Source of the DNA: Candidatus Thalassarchaeum betae
GTDB lineage: Archaea > Thermoplasmatota > Poseidoniia > Poseidoniales > Thalassarchaeaceae
Assembly (NCBI GenBank): GCA_003193925.1
Contig: PSPG01000012.1
Span: 34,435-98,434 of the forward strand
Direction: 5' to 3'
DNA: 64,000 nucleotides
Shown here: positions 9,437-19,297 of the stretch, piece after piece
How the letters are laid out: each line of letters starts with the position of its first letter
How positions within the stretch are numbered: the first letter of the stretch is position 1
The notes under the pieces: generated by a model
Told to the model about the DNA's origin: nothing
Databases searched by the model: none
What the model saw: only the letters and a program-made list of their open reading frames with translations
Position numbers and translations under genes: made by a program

Positions 9437-9555
9437 CTTTCTCTTCCTAGGATGCCGTCATGCGTAGGCTCGCAACCCCGCGATTCTGGTTAATGGGAAA
9501 GTCAATGGGGTCACCACCCCCCCAAACTGCACTACGGTGCGCATTCTACATTGAT

Positions 9556-9572
9556 ACTAAATAGTCTATACT
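9556..9572 (+). promoter_or_regulatory. Probable promoter of the peptide-binding lipoprotein gene
   Basis: AT-rich stretch with ACTAAATAG and TCTATACT in an otherwise GC-rich region. The first element is centred about 26 bases before the ATG at 9587, consistent with a leaderless transcript. Not tested. Confidence 0.45.
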
Positions 9573-9586
9573 TGCGCGCACGACGT

Positions 9587-11842
9587 ATGAAGTCTAAGCT
9601 AACAGCAACACTTCTTTGCACGCTAATGATTGTATCAACTCTTGCCGGTTGTCTCGGCGGGGATGATGGAGACGACGACCCAGACCCAACGATGGTCATG
9701 GGATGTACCTACGCGGACGCGACCAACTACAACGCCGACGCTACGATGGACGACGGATCATGTGAGTATGCGCCCGGTGAGGAGCCAGTTCTTGGCTGCA
9801 CCAACGCGGGCGCTACGAACTACGATTCCGCCGCCACTCGTGACGACGGCTCGTGTACCTACGCTGAAACCGTGATGGGCTGCATGGACCCGGCTGCTAA
9901 CAACCATAACGCAGATGCCGAAGACGATGACGGTTCTTGCGACTATGGTATGGCTCAGGGAGACATTATGGCAGCCTACTCGGCTGGCGACATGTCCTTC
10001 GAGGAGGCTCTGTACGAGCTCGAGAAGTCGAGAAAGTGCCGTGAGCAGGGTTCCAACAACCCCTGTGAGATAGTCGAGATGTCGATTGGCGACGCCTCGA
10101 CAATCGACCCCCACGATGCGTACGACTCGGCATCCGGAGACGTCATTGAGCAGGTCTACGACACGCTCTACCGCTATGCGGGTGACGGAAGCGGAAACGC
10201 CATCATCGAGCCCCGCCTCGCCACCGGCTATTCAGTCAGCGCCGACGGTCTGACCTACACGTTTGATCTACGAGATGACGTGTACTTCAGCAACGGTGAC
10301 CTGATGGAGGCCTCTGACGTTGTGTACTCATGGTGCCGCGTACTTGGCTACGGCTCGCCCGACAGCCACGTGGGCTGGATCCTAGAGCAGAGCTTCGACT
10401 GCAACGACGCTGATGGTAACCACAGCGACACTGGCGGCGAAAGTCTCACTGTCAACAGCGCGACCTCTTTCTCGGTCACACTGTTCGCTGAATCCTCGGC
10501 GTTCATCTCGACGATCGCCTACACGGTCGGCGCTGTGATCAACGCCGAGCTGTGCGAGGCCAACCGCGTCGATGCGGGCGGTGATGGCGACGACTACTGC
10601 CACGAGTGGATGGACGAGGCTCCGTTCGGAGCTGGGACCAACGCTTATCTGGTACAGTCTTGGGTCCGTGAGGACCGACTCGTCCTCGTGCCGAACTGGA
10701 TGTACTGGGAGAGCGGTGATTACAACATCAACCGCCACACCGTGTCCATAGTTACCGAGGCCACGACAAGGCTGCTCGCCTTCACCGACGGTGAGGTCGA
10801 CTTCGGCAGCATCAACATCGAGGATCTGGTGAACTTCTGCGACAACCTGGAAGACAAGCCTAACGTACAGTCCAAGGCAGGATACATCTGCAGTTACAGG
10901 GAGACCTTCACTACGACCCTGTCGGCCTTCAACCTACACCCGAAGGCCCTTGATGCAGGAGAGGACAACACCAACACTGGTGCTAACTCGTCCCTCATCC
11001 TCAACCACGACTGCAGCGGCGACGGCACCAACGACTGCAGCGTCATGGAGGTAGGAGCGGTCCGAGCGGCCATCTCCTACGCGTTCGACTACGAGACCCA
11101 CCGAAGGGACACGTACGACAACTCGCTGGCACCGCAGTACGGCCCGATCCCGACTGGCTTCCTGTATGCGGATACCCAGTACGAGGTCTTCACCTACGAC
11201 CTGGCCTACGCTGAGCAGCTCCTAGAGGACGCTGGCTTCATCCGCCAGTACGACTGCTCCTCGCTGAGCCGCAGCGGTGCGGCAGACGTGGTCGCTGAGG
11301 CAGACAGAGACGGCACCGAGTGCCGCCTGCCGAACATCCTGGGCGTAATGGCCAACGAGGGCAACGACTACCGAATCGCCATGGCCGGCCAGCTCGCTGA
11401 GGCCCTGGGGACCATCGGAGTCGCCACCGCCGGAGATGCCAAGCCATGGGCAGAGTACCTGACCATGTACTACACCAGGACATGGGACATCAGGTTCAGC
11501 GGATGGGCCCCTGACTACCTCGACCCCGACAACTACTGGTCGCCGTTCGCCGGCGGTTACTCCATCGGCGGCGACGCCTATGGTACGGGTTACGAGAACG
11601 CGGACGTCAACGCCGCCCTGCTCATTGGCAGGACCTCGCAGGACGACGCTACGCGCGAGCAGGCGTACGTCGATGCCTTCGAGGCCTGGATCCTAGATCC
11701 CAACATGATCATCATTGGACAGTACAACGGCGTAGGTGTCAAGCACGACGACATCTGCAGCCCGGACTGGGTCGCCATTGGGTCCGCCCACTGGTTCGAC
11801 TACGACAAGCTGCCAATGGTCAAGTCGGCTCCTGCTGATTAA
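9587..11842 (+). CDS. Peptide ABC transporter substrate-binding lipoprotein (OppA/DppA family) with N-terminal Cys/Asp repeats
   Basis: Cell-surface receptor for the transporter encoded downstream. The signal peptide (TATLLCTLMIVSTLAGC) ends in an LAGC lipobox, so it is probably lipid-anchored. About residues 35-125 hold three copies of a 28-32-residue unit of the form GC-x-x-x-A-x-NYN-x-x-A-x-x-DDGSC-x-Y, each with two Cys and an Asp pair. The remaining roughly 620 residues are an SBP_bac_5 domain (IDPHDAYDSASGDVIEQVYDTL, YTFDLRDDVYFSNGD, FSGWAPDYLDPDNYW). An upstream in-frame ATG at 9551 is rejected because it overlaps the promoter and spoils the signal peptide. A pair of strong hairpins separates this gene from the permeases. 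Confidence 0.95.
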   Translation: MKSKLTATLLCTLMIVSTLAGCLGGDDGDDDPDPTMVMGCTYADATNYNADATMDDGSCEYAPGEEPVLGCTNAGATNYDSAATRDDGSCTYAETVMGCMDPAANNHNADAEDDDGSCDYGMAQGDIMAAYSAGDMSFEEALYELEKSRKCREQGSNNPCEIVEMSIGDASTIDPHDAYDSASGDVIEQVYDTLYRYAGDGSGNAIIEPRLATGYSVSADGLTYTFDLRDDVYFSNGDLMEASDVVYSWCRVLGYGSPDSHVGWILEQSFDCNDADGNHSDTGGESLTVNSATSFSVTLFAESSAFISTIAYTVGAVINAELCEANRVDAGGDGDDYCHEWMDEAPFGAGTNAYLVQSWVREDRLVLVPNWMYWESGDYNINRHTVSIVTEATTRLLAFTDGEVDFGSINIEDLVNFCDNLEDKPNVQSKAGYICSYRETFTTTLSAFNLHPKALDAGEDNTNTGANSSLILNHDCSGDGTNDCSVMEVGAVRAAISYAFDYETHRRDTYDNSLAPQYGPIPTGFLYADTQYEVFTYDLAYAEQLLEDAGFIRQYDCSSLSRSGAADVVAEADRDGTECRLPNILGVMANEGNDYRIAMAGQLAEALGTIGVATAGDAKPWAEYLTMYYTRTWDIRFSGWAPDYLDPDNYWSPFAGGYSIGGDAYGTGYENADVNAALLIGRTSQDDATREQAYVDAFEAWILDPNMIIIGQYNGVGVKHDDICSPDWVAIGSAHWFDYDKLPMVKSAPAD
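9680..9950 (+). repeat. Three tandem coding repeats (GC...NYN...DDGSC)
   Basis: Three units within the binding lipoprotein, each of 28-32 codons. They share a leading GC, an A-x-N-[YH]-N core and a closing DDGSC followed by aromatic Tyr. Similar Cys-Asp repeats are known to me from secreted proteins of marine Bacteroidetes; here they form a stalk between lipid anchor and binding domain. Confidence 0.75.
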
Positions 11843-11984: not shown

Positions 11985-13169
11985 ATGAAGCTGCACGAGT
12001 TCGTAGCTCGCCGCCTGCTCCTGCTGATCCCTGTGATGGTGGGAGTCACGGTCCTGACATTCACCATCTCTCATCTCATCCCCGCAGATGCCGCCGCCGC
12101 ACAGTGTGGCGACAAGTGTGGCGTCGTCGTTGATTACACCGAAGATGGTGATCCCATAACCGCTTATGCGGCCAACAGGGAAAGGCTGGGGATGAACGAA
12201 CCGCTCACCACGCAGTTCAGGCTCTACGTGACCCATCTCTTACAAGGCGACTGGGGGGAATCGAGCACCTATCACCGTCCCGTCGCAGATGTGGTGAAAG
12301 ACGCGGCCCCGATCACCTTGGAGATGTCCTTCTTCGCTCTACTCATAGCCTATCCCCTGGGGATCTCCCTCGGCATCCTCAGCGCTGTTCGGCAGGACCG
12401 GATGTTCGATCACATCTCGCGATTCTTCGCCATAGCGTTCGTCAGCCTGCCGATATTCTGGTTCGCGATGGTCCTGCAACTATTGTTCGCTACCCAAGCC
12501 CCCGAATCAGGAGTTGGAGGTATCTGCGACCCGCTCACGAAGTGGCTCCCGCTCGTCCCCGACACGGATGGAGGCTGCTTCCCTATCTACGGGAGGCACG
12601 ACCCCAGCCTCACGTACCCCGAAGACGGATTCGCCTCTTTCTACCCTGCAGGAGGGACCGGGTTCCACCTGATCGACAGCTGGTTCGTGACCGACGGGAA
12701 GCTGGCCACACTGCCGGCCAAGTTTGGCTCCAACCGGCTGCTCTTCAAGGACACCCTGTTGCACCTAGCACTGCCCTGCGCATGCCTGGGCATCGCCTCC
12801 TCCGGTTCCCTGCTGAGGTACATGCGCGCCAGCCTCCTCGAGGTCCTACACGAGGACTACGTGAGGACTGCCCGCGCTAAGGGACTCTCTGAGTTCAGGG
12901 TGGTCATAGTACATGCATGCAGGAACGCTCTGGTCCCGATAGTCACCATCCTCGGATTCTCAATCGGCGGAGCGATAGGCGGCGCTGTACTGACTGAGAC
13001 AATTTTCGCCTTCAACGGCATGGGCCGGGTGGCTGTCAAGTCAATCCAGTACCTCGATTTCCCCGTCATAATGGGTGTGACGCTGATTACTGCGGCCATC
13101 TTCCTGCTGTCCAACCTCGTTGTGGACATATTGTATGCAATCATAGATCCAAGGGTGAGGCTTGAATGA
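11985..13169 (+). CDS. Peptide ABC transporter permease, DppB type
   Basis: First membrane subunit of the peptide importer. The protein has 394 residues. The N-terminal helix (LLLLIPVMVGVTVLTF), the periplasmic segment with LGMNEPLTTQF, the core helices and the ATPase-contact (EAA) loop DYVRTARAKGLSEFRVVIVHACRNAL are all present, and the C-terminus IDPRVRLE is typical. The extracellular loop between core helices is longer than usual by about 60 residues (from near residue 170 to 250) and contains several Cys. The stop overlaps the next gene's ATG (ATGA at 13166). Confidence 0.94.
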   Translation: MKLHEFVARRLLLLIPVMVGVTVLTFTISHLIPADAAAAQCGDKCGVVVDYTEDGDPITAYAANRERLGMNEPLTTQFRLYVTHLLQGDWGESSTYHRPVADVVKDAAPITLEMSFFALLIAYPLGISLGILSAVRQDRMFDHISRFFAIAFVSLPIFWFAMVLQLLFATQAPESGVGGICDPLTKWLPLVPDTDGGCFPIYGRHDPSLTYPEDGFASFYPAGGTGFHLIDSWFVTDGKLATLPAKFGSNRLLFKDTLLHLALPCACLGIASSGSLLRYMRASLLEVLHEDYVRTARAKGLSEFRVVIVHACRNALVPIVTILGFSIGGAIGGAVLTETIFAFNGMGRVAVKSIQYLDFPVIMGVTLITAAIFLLSNLVVDILYAIIDPRVRLE

Positions 13170-14923
13170 GGGGCTGGGACGAAGGCAAAGAGGATCGCAA
13201 GGAAAGCCTGAGGAGGCTTGTCGAGGCTCTATCTCAATCCAGGAGCGACATTTCGCGGAGCTGGAGGATATACCGCCGGTCCCTGCTTGCAGTAGTAGGG
13301 CTCATGCTGGTAATGTCCGTCGTCACGGTCTCGATTTTCGCCGACGATATAGCAGTCGAGCACCCCTACCGGAACCTGCAGGACACGGAGGACCTCTGGA
13401 CCATCGACTACGAGCCCCGGAGGGCCCACCCGTTCTCCGAGGAGTGCGACTGGCACGAACAGTCTATCACCGTGGACACCAGATCCCCCCTCTTCTCGGA
13501 GACCGTAGTCGCCGTGTCAGACAACAAGGTAGGAGACGACAACAAGTACTACCGCGACACCCTCTCTGTAATCGAGCTCCTCAGCCTGAAGGATGACCTG
13601 GGCTACGGCCTCAACATCTCATTGATTAGCATAGACCCGAACAACTCCTCTATCCTCATCGTGTCCGAGGAGCTCTACAACAACTCGTCAATGACAGGCA
13701 AGGTCTGGCTCACCTACGAGTTCGAAAACGAGGCCATGCACATCTGGTGGATGCCGGAGGGCTACGAACATTGCATCTTCGGAACCAACGATCAGGGGCA
13801 GGACATGTTCAGCAAGGTCCTGTACGGATCCCGTGTCTCTCTGAAGATCGGAATCACCGTTGCCATGCTCACAGTGACCATAGGGACCATCGTCGGCAGT
13901 GTGAGCGGCTACTTCGGCGGCAGGGTGGACGAGGTAATCATGAGGATCTGTGACGTCTTCTTCGCAATACCCGGGCTGATCCTCGCCATGGCCTTCGTCA
14001 CGGCGATGTCTGCGATGACGAGCCTCACTATGCCAATGTGGTTGGGGATCCTGATTCCGATATTATTCCTGGCCGTGGTTTTCAGGTCATACCTGGCATC
14101 AACCATCGCAGGAGACCGAATCAGCGACCAAGTGATGGGGTCATTAATGCGAAACCGGAACATATTCCTAGGTTTATTCTTACTCTTCTTCTTCGTTGGC
14201 TTGTTCCCCGGTGCTTCGTGGTCAGACCTCTTTGGAATCTCAGACAGCCAGGGATGGAGAATCGGTGCTGCCACGGGTATAATCCTCATCCTCGGAATGT
14301 TAGCGCTAGCAGACAAGCGCTTCATCGAGAAGACAAGCTTCGATGGCGCCGGGGAGCGTCTGAGCAAATCCCTCGATTGGACAAACCCGTGGAGGTACCT
14401 CACACTGAGGACCGTGGCGATCTTCGTTGCTGCAGTAGTCATCTATCGCTTCTCAGGTAGCCCCGGGGATGAGATAGTCGTGATCAAGGACTTCGACCGA
14501 CTCTGGAAGATACAGGCCGCCCTGATTTTCACCGGATGGCCAGGCTATGCCAGGCTGATCAGGGGACAGGTTCTGTATGTCAAGGAGATGACATTCGTCG
14601 AGGCAGCTAGGAGCGTGGGCGCTCCTTCGGGGAGGATAATGTTCAGGCACATCCTTCCCAATGCTTGGGCCCCGCTCCTCGTCGCCTTCACTCTCGACAT
14701 CGGAGGGACCATTCTGACAGCGTCCGGGCTGTCGTTCATCGGACTGGGGGCTGCCCCGGGCACAGCGGAGTGGGGCATCCTTGTATCGGAGAGCAGGCGG
14801 TACTTCGTCCCCGACCCACACCTGATGCTCTTCCCCGGACTCGCTATCGCAGTCACCACTCTCGGTTTCAATCTGCTCGGTGACGGGATCAGGGACGTAG
14901 TGGACCCCAAGAACAGGAGGTGA
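13166..14923 (+). CDS. Peptide ABC transporter permease, DppC type, with large internal membrane insertion
   Basis: Second membrane subunit. The protein has 585 residues against about 300 for ordinary DppC. Canonical pieces are the first helix (residues 40-58), GTNDQGQDMFSKVLYGSRVS (about 206-225), YFGGRVDEVIMRICDVFFAIPG (249-270), then TGWPGYARLIRGQVL (456-470) and the EAA loop YVEAARSVGAPSGRIMFRHILPN (477-499). Two expansions explain the length. One is an extracellular domain of about 140 residues after helix 1. The other is about 165 residues (near 283-450) with four to five extra hydrophobic helices, placed where ordinary DppC has only a short loop. There is no frameshift; both halves are in one frame. 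Confidence 0.9.
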   Translation: MRGWDEGKEDRKESLRRLVEALSQSRSDISRSWRIYRRSLLAVVGLMLVMSVVTVSIFADDIAVEHPYRNLQDTEDLWTIDYEPRRAHPFSEECDWHEQSITVDTRSPLFSETVVAVSDNKVGDDNKYYRDTLSVIELLSLKDDLGYGLNISLISIDPNNSSILIVSEELYNNSSMTGKVWLTYEFENEAMHIWWMPEGYEHCIFGTNDQGQDMFSKVLYGSRVSLKIGITVAMLTVTIGTIVGSVSGYFGGRVDEVIMRICDVFFAIPGLILAMAFVTAMSAMTSLTMPMWLGILIPILFLAVVFRSYLASTIAGDRISDQVMGSLMRNRNIFLGLFLLFFFVGLFPGASWSDLFGISDSQGWRIGAATGIILILGMLALADKRFIEKTSFDGAGERLSKSLDWTNPWRYLTLRTVAIFVAAVVIYRFSGSPGDEIVVIKDFDRLWKIQAALIFTGWPGYARLIRGQVLYVKEMTFVEAARSVGAPSGRIMFRHILPNAWAPLLVAFTLDIGGTILTASGLSFIGLGAAPGTAEWGILVSESRRYFVPDPHLMLFPGLAIAVTTLGFNLLGDGIRDVVDPKNRR

Positions 14924-14927
14924 GAAG

Positions 14928-16613
14928 GTGTCGGATAACTTGCTCGAGATCGAGGGTCTCAGAGTCCACTTCGACACTCTGGACGGGCCAATTGAGGCTC
15001 TCCACTCCGTAGACCTGAAGGTCAAGCAGGGCCAGATAATGGGGCTGGTCGGTGAGTCGGGGTGCGGGAAGTCAGTCACTTCACTGGTGACGATTGGTCT
15101 GGCTACCTGTGATGTCGACGAGGGCAGCGTGAAGTACGAAGGCGAGGAAATGCTGTTCAGTGTTTCAGAGCACGACAAGAAAATCCAAGACGTCTCAGGA
15201 CGGATAACCGTGCTCGGGGTATTGGCATCGATAGTAGCGGTTTTCTGGACGATTCTGATAAACCCCATTCAGGGCATTACCCTCCTTGTCATATTCTTGT
15301 TCGTGGCAATAGTCTCGTGGATTTTTGGGTTTATCGCTAAGAGCGAATACCGACGCCATCAGAAGTTCATGCAATCGGTGCGCGGCAACAAGATCAGCAT
15401 GATCTTCCAGGAGCCCATGACGGCCCTCAACCCGCTTTACACGGTGGAGAAGCAGATCTCCGAGGTGATGCGCGTGCACGACAGGCTTGTCGAGGCCGAG
15501 ACTCCGCGTTACGTCAGAGTCGGTCAGGCACTTGTCAGCCCTGCCACCCTCATCCGCGACGCCTTTTCCTCACGGCCACAAGCGTCGATTGCCACCTCCT
15601 CCGTTCTCGCCTTTGTCCTCGTCGCCCATCTGTCTGGCTTCGCCGACTCCGCTGCAGAGGCAGTCACCGCTCCCTTCGTCTTCGTCTTCAAGGATCTCTT
15701 CTGGGTCCTCATCGTCCTCCTTAGCGGATATCTTGTGAATTCACGGGCACAAATCGAGGCGTTGAACGCCTTGTACCGGCCTCTAAAGTACGCCGCCCCT
15801 CAGGTTCCTCTTGTCTCCGCCGTGGCTTTGGTCATCTTCCTGATGCTCTGGATGCCGCTCTCCGCTTTCCTCGGGATGGCTGTAATCAGCACTCTCCTGG
15901 CCCTGCCGGCGATCATAGTCCTGGACTATCTGAGACTTGACCCCGCGCACACCCGACAGGTCATCGGACTCCTCGAGGAGGTCAGGATTCCGGATCCGAG
16001 CGCAGTTGTGAAGATGTACCCGCACGAACTCTCCGGAGGGATGCGTCAGAGGGTGATGATCGCCATGATGATGGCTTGCGAGCCCAAACTGCTCATCGCC
16101 GACGAGCCGACAACCGCCCTCGACGTTACAATTCAGGCCCAGATTCTACAGTTGATGCGAGACCTGCGCGACGAGAAGGACACGGCTATCCTGCTTATCA
16201 CACACGACTTGGGGGTTATCGCCGAGATGTGCGACGCAGTCACCGTGATGTACGCCGGGGCGGTGGTCGAGACAGGCAGTATCGAGGATGTTCTTTCTAA
16301 ACCTCGGATGCCCTACTCAATCGGCTTGCTTCACAGCATTCCAACGATCGATGAAGAGGCTGGTCGCAGGGAGGTACTGCCTATCATCCCGGGCCAAGTC
16401 CCGGATCCCAACCTACACTTCGATGGTTGTAGGTTCCACCCTCGCTGCCCGTTCGCGGACGCAACATGCATCTCAACTCCGCCACCGATGAAGGAGGTCG
16501 AACCCGGTCACTTCGCAGCCTGCCACCACACCAATAGGACGGAGAACGTTGCAGACGTGCAGGCCTCATTCGACGTTTTCGCAGCCGAGTACGATTTGGA
16601 AGGAGTTGCCTGA
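14928..16613 (+). CDS. Peptide ABC transporter ATPase, DppD type, with two membrane-segment insertions
   Basis: Nucleotide-binding subunit of 561 residues against about 330 normally. All ATPase motifs are intact: Walker A GESGCGKS (42-49), Q-loop IFQEP (Q161), signature LSGGMRQ (368-374), Walker B LLIADEP (388-394), H-loop H426, and the C-terminal oligopeptide-family tail with Cys-rich CRFHPRCPF. Unusually, residues about 80-150 (between Walker A and Q-loop) contain two hydrophobic helices. Residues about 190-345 (between Q-loop and signature) contain about four more. The flanking sequence on both sides of each insertion is normal DppD. The start is GTG at 14928 after a GGAGGTGA ribosome site. 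The stop lies just before the next ATG. Confidence 0.92.
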
Positions 16614-16614
16614 G

Positions 16615-17679
16615 ATGCCAGATGACAGCAAGACCGACGAGGTCCTCATAGAGGTCGAGGGAATGAGGAAGTGGTTCCCGATCAAGAGCGGTATGCTGAC
16701 TACGGTGAAGAGCCACGTCCGCGCAGTTGACGGGGTCGATCTGCAGGTAATGCGAGGTGAGACCCTCGGGATCGTCGGCGAGTCGGGTTGCGGTAAGACC
16801 ACGCTGGGACGAGTCATACTGGGACTCACCCATATGACCGAGGGGTCGGTCCACTACGCCGGAGAGGACATCCGGATGATGACAAACAGAGACCTCAGGA
16901 GGAGGCTCCAGATTGTGTTCCAGGACCCCGGAGGCTCGATGAACCCGAGGATGTCGGTGCGATCCATAGTGGGGGAGCCACTCCAGGTGAATGGAATGGC
17001 CCAGGGTGCCGAGTTGACGCAGAGGGTAGCTGATTTGCTTGATTCCGTGGGCCTCAAGCGCGAGCACATGAACAGATTCCCCCACGAGTTCTCCGGTGGA
17101 CAGAAGCAGAGGATCGCCCTAGCGAGGGCACTATCTCTGGACCCTGAGTTCATTCTCCTCGACGAGCCAACCAGCGCATTGGACGTGTCCGTTCAGGCCC
17201 AGGTTCTGAATCTGCTCGAGGAGATAAAGGCGAAGCACGGCCTCACTTTAGTCTTCATCACTCACGCACTCAACGTCGTCAACCACATTTGCGACAGAGT
17301 CGCAGTGATGTACCTCGGAAAGATCGTCGAGATTGCCAATACGAACGACCTGTTCAGTAAGCCAGCCCACCCATACACGCATGCTCTGATGTCGGCTATC
17401 CCAGAGCCCTCACTAGAAAAGGCCGCTAGGAGGAGGGTAGTTCTGAGTGGTGACGTACCCAGTCCCACAGACCCTCCTCCGGGATGCAGGTTCCACACCC
17501 GTTGCCCCATCGCTGAGGAGGGGCTCTGCGATGTCGAGGAGCCGAAACTTGAGTCCATCGGTGAAGGCCATGAGGTCGCGTGCCACTTCCCACTGGGTCC
17601 CGGGATGAAACTCCCAATGCTAGACGATGCCGAGAACCCCTCTGAGGAAGACCACGGGCCGAAGACGATCGTATTCTGA
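16615..17679 (+). CDS. Peptide ABC transporter ATPase, DppF type
   Basis: Second ATPase of the importer, of ordinary architecture and length (354 residues). It has Walker [10 protein letters not shown]-loop VFQDP, signature FSGGQKQR (a mild variant of LSGGQ), Walker B ILLDEP, H-loop ITHAL, and the C-terminal tail with [11 protein letters not shown]. It lacks the membrane insertions of its partner, which makes the partner's insertions stand out. The ATG at 16615 follows the previous stop by one base; an upstream in-frame ATG at 16549 would overlap it. Confidence 0.95.
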
Positions 17680-17688
17680 GGGACACCA

Positions 17689-18063
17689 ATGGCTGAGAAG
17701 GAATCCGACACAGACGGAACCGAGGCCACTCCCCCTCCGATGCACGACAAGAAAGAGGAGGCAGAGGCCGCCTTCTGGAGACTGAAGAAGGCCTCTGACA
17801 AGAGCAGAGAGGAGCGAGTCAAGCGAGTTCTGGCTCAGGAGGGGGAAGGGCTTCTGACTACACTCGGCAGAGTGGTGTACATTTCGGCGTGCATAGTGTT
17901 CGATGGCGTGGTGCTGCTGCAAGTTCCAGCCGGCATGGGCAGGACCTTAGCCGCCTGGTCCCTGTATGTGGTCTTGCTAGTAGTCGCCATCAAGCTACAG
18001 CACGACCTCTACGAGAAGTGGTTCGATGTCGACATCAGTCCGATCGACTTTGATCGGCAGTGA
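17689..18063 (+). CDS. Small membrane protein, last gene of the peptide-transporter operon
   Basis: Not recognised. The protein has 124 residues: a charged, probably cytoplasmic N-terminal half rich in Lys and Glu, then two hydrophobic helices (LGRVVYISACIVFDGVVLL and LAAWSLYVVLLVVAIKL) and a short acidic tail. It begins nine bases after dppF, so it is likely cotranscribed. Its 3' end overlaps the convergent MFS gene by 29 bases. Could be a transporter accessory subunit, on position alone. Confidence 0.7.
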   Translation: MAEKESDTDGTEATPPPMHDKKEEAEAAFWRLKKASDKSREERVKRVLAQEGEGLLTTLGRVVYISACIVFDGVVLLQVPAGMGRTLAAWSLYVVLLVVAIKLQHDLYEKWFDVDISPIDFDRQ

Positions 18064-19297
18064 TCGGGAAGCGCTCAGTGGCGATTCGCTCGAAGCGCCT
18101 GAACGAAGGCACGACGATACCGATTATCGTGGCGGCGACCATGATCGACACCGCCACAACAAAGGCCGCCTCGAGCCCCAATCTCTCGATCATCATCCCG
18201 CCGAGGACCATAGCGGGTGGAATCAGGATGAAGGAGCCGATTGCATCGATAGAGTTGACCCGGCCACGCAGATGCTGCTCTACGCTGTCCCCTATCGTCG
18301 TGTTCCAGATGACTCCCAACACCCCCACGAGGAGGCCTTGGAACAGCGAGATCAGCAGAATGAGCGCGAACCAGGGCACGAACACGAACAGCAGGTCCAA
18401 CCAAGCGGCGAAGCCGACGGTGACGTAGAATACCGTCCCACGTGAGCTCTTCGGAATCGGATTACTGCCTGCATAAAGGGCACCCACGGCGGCTCCGATC
18501 GGGAAGACGGCGCCCCAGATTCCGTAATAGAAACCATTCCAGCCGTTATTCAAGGCGATGGAGGGGATGCCGACATCTACTATCGCAGCACCAACGTGGA
18601 ATGCCATGAACACGAGGATTCCGACGAACAGCCAAGGCTGGCTGCGAGTGAAAGACAGAGCATGACTCATCTCCGACTTGAAGTCGGAATCCTCTTCCTC
18701 ATCCCTGACGATTGGGACCTCCTCCATGTTGTACAGCACATACGCACTGACGAGGAAGGTGACCATGTCGATGAAGAGCGCGACTTCGATGCTTGAATAG
18801 GTGATTATTGCACCACCGATCAGACCACCGAGCGACCACGAGATAGTACGAATGGAATTGAGCAAACCGGTCGCAGAGGCCAGGATCTCCTCGTCTACTA
18901 GGTCTGGCACAAGGGCCTGAGTCGCGGGTATCGAGAAAGCTGTAGACGCTCCCATCATCACGGCGGCGAAGAGCAACACCTTCAGCACGGGGAGGCCGAT
19001 GAGGAGGAGGCTGATGAAAAGGAGAGCGAAGCTTGCCTGTACATAGTCGGTGTACAGCGCGACGGTCCGCCTGGGTATTCGGTCGACCACCATCCCGCCA
19101 ACTGTCAGAAGGGGCAGGTGAGCGACGAAATATGCGACTCCGAACCACGCGAACCACACCGGTCCGGCTAGCTCATTCACACGCCATCCTGCCGCGACCA
19201 TGAAGCCGGCTCGGCCGACCTTGCTAACGCCGTCCCCAATCAGGAAACGCCGCAGGTCGCGGACTTCCCAAGCCTCTCGGAGACCCATTGCCAACAT
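18035..19297 (-). CDS. Major facilitator superfamily transporter
   Basis: 420 residues with about twelve hydrophobic helices, an N-terminal LRRFLIGDGVSKVG segment and the loop 2-3 motif VVDRIPRRTVALYTD. This resembles the MFS_3/EntS-type exporter branch. The middle loop (EEVPIVRDEEEDSDFKSEMSHAL) separates the two six-helix halves. Substrate unknown. The start could also be the ATG ending at 19288. It converges with the peptide-transporter operon. Confidence 0.85.
   Translation of the reverse strand: MLAMGLREAWEVRDLRRFLIGDGVSKVGRAGFMVAAGWRVNELAGPVWFAWFGVAYFVAHLPLLTVGGMVVDRIPRRTVALYTDYVQASFALLFISLLLIGLPVLKVLLFAAVMMGASTAFSIPATQALVPDLVDEEILASATGLLNSIRTISWSLGGLIGGAIITYSSIEVALFIDMVTFLVSAYVLYNMEEVPIVRDEEEDSDFKSEMSHALSFTRSQPWLFVGILVFMAFHVGAAIVDVGIPSIALNNGWNGFYYGIWGAVFPIGAAVGALYAGSNPIPKSSRGTVFYVTVGFAAWLDLLFVFVPWFALILLISLFQGLLVGVLGVIWNTTIGDSVEQHLRGRVNSIDAIGSFILIPPAMVLGGMMIERLGLEAAFVVAVSIMVAATIIGIVVPSFRRFERIATERFPITADQSRSD

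Follow-up and report, generated by a model that had tools for sequence, protein, structure and literature searches.

ATPase cassettes of ABC transporters, which are among the most conserved protein domains, are regarded as soluble modules that dock on a permease. A gene in the window analyzed here (the whole 64,000-nucleotide stretch of Candidatus Thalassarchaeum betae DNA, whose positions are used throughout) raises the question whether such a cassette can be interrupted by membrane helices and still belong to a genuine importer. This gene, dppD (14928..16613, + strand), encodes 561 aa in a single open frame, and a preliminary description had read it as a DppD-type ATPase retaining every motif but split by two hydrophobic blocks.

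The protein is, judged by its sequence, a genuine Opp/Dpp-type importer ATPase, with ATPase and uptake functions that are predicted: motifs, Pfam matches, and fold agree, a C-terminal oligo_HPY domain and cluster cysteines are present, and DppA, DppB, DppC, and DppF partners are encoded alongside. dppD starts with GTG, with a Shine-Dalgarno-like site (AGGAGGTGA) just 5' of it, and the dppC stop codon lies four bases before. The order of motifs is that of Opp/Dpp-type ATPases (Walker A, Q-loop, LSGGQ-type signature, Walker B, H-loop). As located by sequence and invariant alignment columns, they correspond to residues 42-49 (GESGCGKS), Q161, 368-372 (LSGGM), D392-E393 (Walker B/catalytic), and H426. 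Pfam ABC_tran (PF00005, 1.4e-24) matches in two pieces, and oligo_HPY (PF08352, 4.1e-17) matches at the C terminus. OppD and DppD are the top NCBIfam models, but both score far under their cut-offs because the match is fragmented. The four-cysteine [4Fe-4S] tail (CX5CX6CX17C) is kept, at C501, C507, C514, and C532 (284, 290, 297, and 315 in Escherichia coli). Like E. coli DppD (DppBCDF, PDB 8z1v-8z1y) and OppD (8z21), the protein has, as modeled, an entire nucleotide-binding fold with all motifs, and it shares with E. coli Dpp the oligo_HPY tail, the cysteine spacing, and the operon order A-B-C-D-F. In E. coli Dpp, by contrast, the subunit is soluble and uninterrupted, DppC has no extra helices, and there is no sixth protein. 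Walker A and signature are separated by 318 residues in the window DppD versus 75-100 in the other cassettes read from the same genome, and six hydrophobic helices with a positive-inside pattern set it apart from a soluble subunit without transmembrane (TM) segments.

The additional residues form two inserts. Insert 1 (∼65 aa), visible in the Walker A-Q-loop spacing, lies between these two motifs, with its hydrophobic part at residues 94-137; with flanks (residues 77-151) it covers 15156..15380 (+ strand) and would form hairpin 1. Insert 2 (∼150 aa) lies between Q-loop and signature, in the helical subdomain, with its hydrophobic part at residues 217-335; with flanks (residues 185-351) it covers 15480..15980 (+ strand) and would form hairpins 2 and 3. 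Kyte-Doolittle and Wimley-White scales both place hydrophobic segments where the preliminary description had put them (about two helices at residues 94-137 and about four at 220-335). The Kyte-Doolittle segments are 93-111/119-137 and 221-239/246-264/293-311/314-332, in a numbering that begins three residues upstream of the protein. The six helices, all on the + strand, are a (residues 94-110, 15207..15257), b (117-137, 15276..15338), c (217-237, 15576..15638), d (248-268, 15669..15731), e (292-310, 15801..15857), and f (311-335, 15858..15932). Helix e terminates in a conserved WMP tip, of which W and P are almost invariant. The octanol energies of helices a to f (-10.8, -16.2, -4.8, -9.6, -13.1, and -5.2, i.e. 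-4.8 to -16.2 kcal/mol) match those of the true TM helices in the adjacent DppB and DppC, and their helical moments are low (0.04-0.27), unlike those of buried amphipathic helices. In 29 full copies, hairpin tips carry on average 0.07, 0.24, and 0.00 Lys+Arg per sequence, compared to 1.9-5.4 for the cytosolic flanks. Hydropathy, low moments, the even number of helices, and the strong positive-inside bias therefore indicate three membrane hairpins with their tips outside. No hydrophobic window was found between Walker A and signature in any of 133 DppD/F-like cassettes from 80 bacterial loci, nor in the other cassettes read from the window genome, which argues that the six segments are not due to chance. 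No PDB sequence matches insert 2, and the inserts have only single, weak Pfam matches to TM-type families (promethin, Na/H antiporters, ArsP). An origin by duplication of one another, or from the DppC insert or the small protein described below, was rejected, since profile comparisons (insert 1 against insert 2, the DppC insert, and the small protein; the DppC insert against insert 2) gave no signal, with a probability <1%.

An AlphaFold2 model of DppD, built on 49 natural sequences (pLDDT 89.6, pTM 0.77), supports a cassette that closes despite these inserts. Over 322/326 residues it fits E. coli DppD (8z1x_C) at 2.2 Å (VIA-align, Z 39.1), so that the predicted fold is closed, with both inserts external to it. 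The preliminary description had placed the inserts in the two lobes, and this is supported: insert 1 is in the RecA/beta lobe and insert 2 in the helical lobe, with the core fold kept. Helices are predicted at 81-110 and 113-137 for insert 1, and at 194-215, 217-235, 248-269, 273-308, and 311-334 for insert 2, pairing as 81-110 with 113-137, 217-235 with 248-269, and 273-308 with 311-334. Several overrun their hydrophobic part and are long enough to span the distance between nucleotide-binding domain (NBD) and membrane, e.g. helix 273-308.

The arrangement is shared by relatives. Among 148 genomes of the (probably marine) archaeal family to which the window genome belongs, 45 match at E < 1e-30, of which about 41, as read by eye, have inserted DppD or its paralogue; the inserted system is absent from most species of the family. 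Independent assemblies, all of this one family, provide 31 complete or near-complete copies with both inserts at identical sites, and samples of the order (318 genomes) and phylum (389 genomes) contain no inserted DppD outside it. A single scan of genome contigs revealed ordinary DppD only, save for Clostridial copies with soluble inserts. Across forty operon regions, the gene order dppA-B-C-D-F is invariant wherever the contig extends far enough. In full copies, the Walker A-Q-loop spacing is 104-110 aa, hence nearly constant, whereas the length of insert 2 differs between copies. In pairwise comparison, core stretches are 73-84% identical and the hydrophobic insert helices only 16-38%, although the latter keep their hydrophobicity. 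For pairs with sufficient change, dN/dS is about 0.07-0.48 in the inserts and 0.005-0.06 in the core. By this measure the inserts are true coding sequence subject to purifying selection, and they evolve ∼10 times faster than the core. Lipid-facing helices usually evolve fast. Two aberrant copies were noted. One operon copy is decaying (contig 37 of G118, L131): its dppD contains three TGA codons, its dppA and dppF are broken, and the genome has a second, intact copy alongside. An apparent DppC-DppD fusion of 899 aa in G141 was left out because it spans a scaffold gap (N-run).

A sister paralogue, found in three operons (G079, G112, and G139), has part of this equipment. It lacks insert 1 (Walker A-Q-loop spacing of 41 aa), its insert 2 consists of the last hairpin alone, and it is accompanied by a DppC without insert. 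Hairpin 3 is therefore common to both types, and hairpins 1 and 2 are present or absent together with the DppC insert. In a tree computed without the C-terminal tail, full (31) and partial (3) copies are sister clades with joint support of 100/100; polyphyly of the partial paralogues was rejected as an artefact of including the swapped tail. These tails (16420-16540 in DppD and 17480-17620 in DppF of the window; compared in L118-L157) come in two types, one with the classical CxFHxRCPx cysteine motif and the other with CRFCQRM..CPxC in DppD and CAFGHR..CPCC in DppF. Tail types match within each operon where both were read and cut across the core tree, as if the DppD and DppF tails had been swapped jointly. 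Separately, DppC of partial-paralogue operons (L151 and L152) has an extra hydrophobic N-terminal stretch, reaches up to 1034 aa overall, and has a very long extracellular TM1-TM2 region with DxDxDG calcium-binding-like repeats.

Inserted DppD is encoded in an operon on the + strand that is itself altered. It comprises a DppA-like solute-binding lipoprotein (9551..11842; SBP_bac_5, 5.5e-51; lipobox LAGC; likely start ATG near 9587), the permeases DppB (11985..13169; BPD_transp_1, 9.7e-44) and DppC (13166..14923, 585 aa; BPD_transp_1, 4.6e-28), and, 3' of dppD, the partner ATPase DppF (16615..17679, 354 aa; ABC_tran, 1.1e-34; oligo_HPY). DppF is ordinary, as had been proposed, with no Kyte-Doolittle TM window. 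The AlphaFold2 core of DppC superposes on that of E. coli over 281/282 residues at 1.7 Å, but spacing and charge pattern reveal an insert between TM3 and TM4 (residues 282-444, 14009..14497) with about four hydrophobic helices, modeled at low confidence (pLDDT mostly 50-78). Its inner loops carry 2.9 and 5.2 K+R per sequence and its outer loops 0.15 and 0.77, i.e. a positive-inside pattern. The TM3-TM4 spacing is 203-274 aa in 29 full operons and 64 in two partial-paralogue operons; three operons of the standard type, from the same archaeal family, have 49, and the third partial-paralogue operon also lacks the insert. Presence in 29/29 full operons measured, 0/3 partial, and 0/3 standard amounts to a small number of independent events, in essence two sister clades. 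DppC also has a ∼150-residue, beta-rich, predicted extracellular domain between TM1 and TM2 (residues 60-213, 13340-13800).

A sixth gene (17689..18063, + strand), conserved 3' of dppF, encodes a small protein with a cytosolic helix (motif FWRLKxA..RVLAQEGE) followed by two TM helices, for which the window copy has no Pfam or NCBIfam match. It occupies the same place in 33 further regions that carry the full or the partial operon, and in L224. In a scan of the phylum it is confined to genomes with inserted DppD, with two exceptions, a genome of the same genus from which dppD was not recovered and a chance-level match elsewhere. Because the DppD inserts accompany both the DppC insert and this small membrane protein, it is the whole transporter that is altered. 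The operon is adjoined by an MFS-like transporter gene in opposite orientation (18035-19297, minus strand). An MFS-like gene also adjoins the partial paralogue of G139 (on the + strand of L224, from position 2), which makes it a possible conserved neighbor.

The premise of the preliminary description that no such cassette is interrupted in its interior is too broad. In Bacilli and Mollicutes (L209-L223), inserts about 100-400 residues long occur in OppD at the site of insert 2 and in OppF at the site of insert 1. Two Clostridial OppD (L076 and L084, ORFs of 608 and 443 aa) have a long charged, probably disordered insert at the site of insert 1, just before the Q-loop. Both sites, with the same sequence junctions, are thus shared with the window DppD and are recurrent insertion points. 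The bacterial inserts differ in being soluble, charged, and coiled-coil-like or acidic, with no hydrophobic window in those read, against six here. Consequently, only the membrane nature of the hairpins is new, and among everything compared they were found at these sites only in this archaeal family. Other architectures resemble the window DppD in part. In half-transporters with fused TM domain and NBD (exporters, MsbA/ABCB), the ATPase is covalently held at the membrane, with the membrane domain at the end of the cassette, whereas every hydrophobic segment of DppD lies between Walker A and signature. In Rad50/SMC heads, an ABC-type cassette is split by long helices between these same motifs, but these form a soluble coiled coil in DNA-repair and structure proteins that are not transporters. 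In the open-access literature, consulted mostly as titles and abstracts, no ABC importer is described whose cassette contains a TM insert, and an ATPase motor split by membrane hairpins appears to be without earlier description.

We consider it probable, although well short of certain, that this is an oligopeptide importer of the Opp/Dpp type whose DppD has become an integral membrane protein, with a cassette predicted to close normally. That the hairpins insert in the membrane is very likely. The NBD would be built from three cytosolic stretches (residues about 1-93, 138-216, and 336-561) with membrane hairpins between them, one exiting from and returning to the RecA/beta lobe and two doing so from the helical lobe. 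Since hairpin tips would be outside, the cassette would remain on the cytosolic face, where it would close together with the ordinary DppF. Most likely, the hairpins sit at the periphery of the permease, packed with the four extra DppC helices and the sixth protein; the odds that these together form an added membrane module, in contact with one another, appear about even. In E. coli, DppD is located beneath DppB, not DppC (PMC12136057), so a contact with the DppC insert is no given. There, stability of the complex requires the [4Fe-4S] tails of both DppD and DppF, oxidation dissociates it, and the helical lobe rotates by ∼20 degrees per cycle (PMC12136057). Hairpins could keep the ATPase at the permease without reliance on its usual points of contact, the coupling helix and the oxidizable tails, whatever the state of the cluster. 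With each lobe separately anchored, a second mechanical link, passing lobe rotation (∼20 degrees) to membrane helices, would be possible. A mechanical role for the hairpins is a tentative proposal, and equally speculative is the wider scheme of a new importer architecture, in which a polytopic ATPase with separately anchored lobes, the four additional helices of DppC, and a two-helix subunit dedicated to this importer provide a second mechanical and assembly link beside the coupling helix. Three observations count against the explanation as a whole: fast divergence of the inserts is also compatible with a loose, lipid-facing decoration, the partial paralogue apparently works with a single hairpin, and most species of the family do without the system.

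The main rivals of this explanation are neutral expansion and monotopic hairpins. Loops tolerant to insertion might have gained hydrophobic hairpins as mere ballast, soluble in lipid and irrelevant to transport, as could be expected from the very different soluble inserts tolerated at both sites in Bacteria, the rapid divergence of the inserts, and the variable length of insert 2. We find this rather unlikely in view of purifying selection, the near-constant spacing of insert 1 across the family, the conservation of the WMP tip and of an LDxAH junction, and the strict association with both the insert of DppC and the sixth protein. Slightly less likely again, the hairpins might be re-entrant, dipping into the inner leaflet and attaching the ATPase without crossing. 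Two tips are indeed short and uncharged (INPIQG and WMPLSA), and hairpins 2-3 weakly match promethin, a hairpin membrane protein (E 0.01 for the window, 0.003 at best), but each helix has 17-25 hydrophobic residues, sufficient for crossing, octanol energies are on par with real TM helices, and hairpin 2 has a polar, acidic tip (D+E 1.6 per sequence), as is typical of outside loops. Soluble helices decorating the cassette, either buried or forming a coiled coil like those of Mollicute OppD/OppF, would account for the identical insertion sites but are very improbable considering the six low-moment, positive-inside hydrophobic segments that the bacterial inserts read do not have, and a DppD core fold that is complete without the inserts. 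An assembly chimera or decaying gene, for which only the copy with three TGA stops speaks, is refuted by the relatives, with 31 independent open copies and dN/dS <0.5 in the inserts and <=0.06 in the core. Of the explanations that had been named as fatal to the membrane reading, a chimera and absence of the inserts from relatives are refuted by these open copies, and soluble buried helices are very improbable.

If the reading of DppD as an integral membrane protein is true, an ABC fold can form from pieces set apart by membrane passages. The two sites, common to soluble bacterial inserts, would be general insertion points of the cassette, and the family would offer a natural test case for the effect of tethering the NBD to the membrane on coupling. 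The sixth protein is a candidate new subunit for a well-studied class of transporters.
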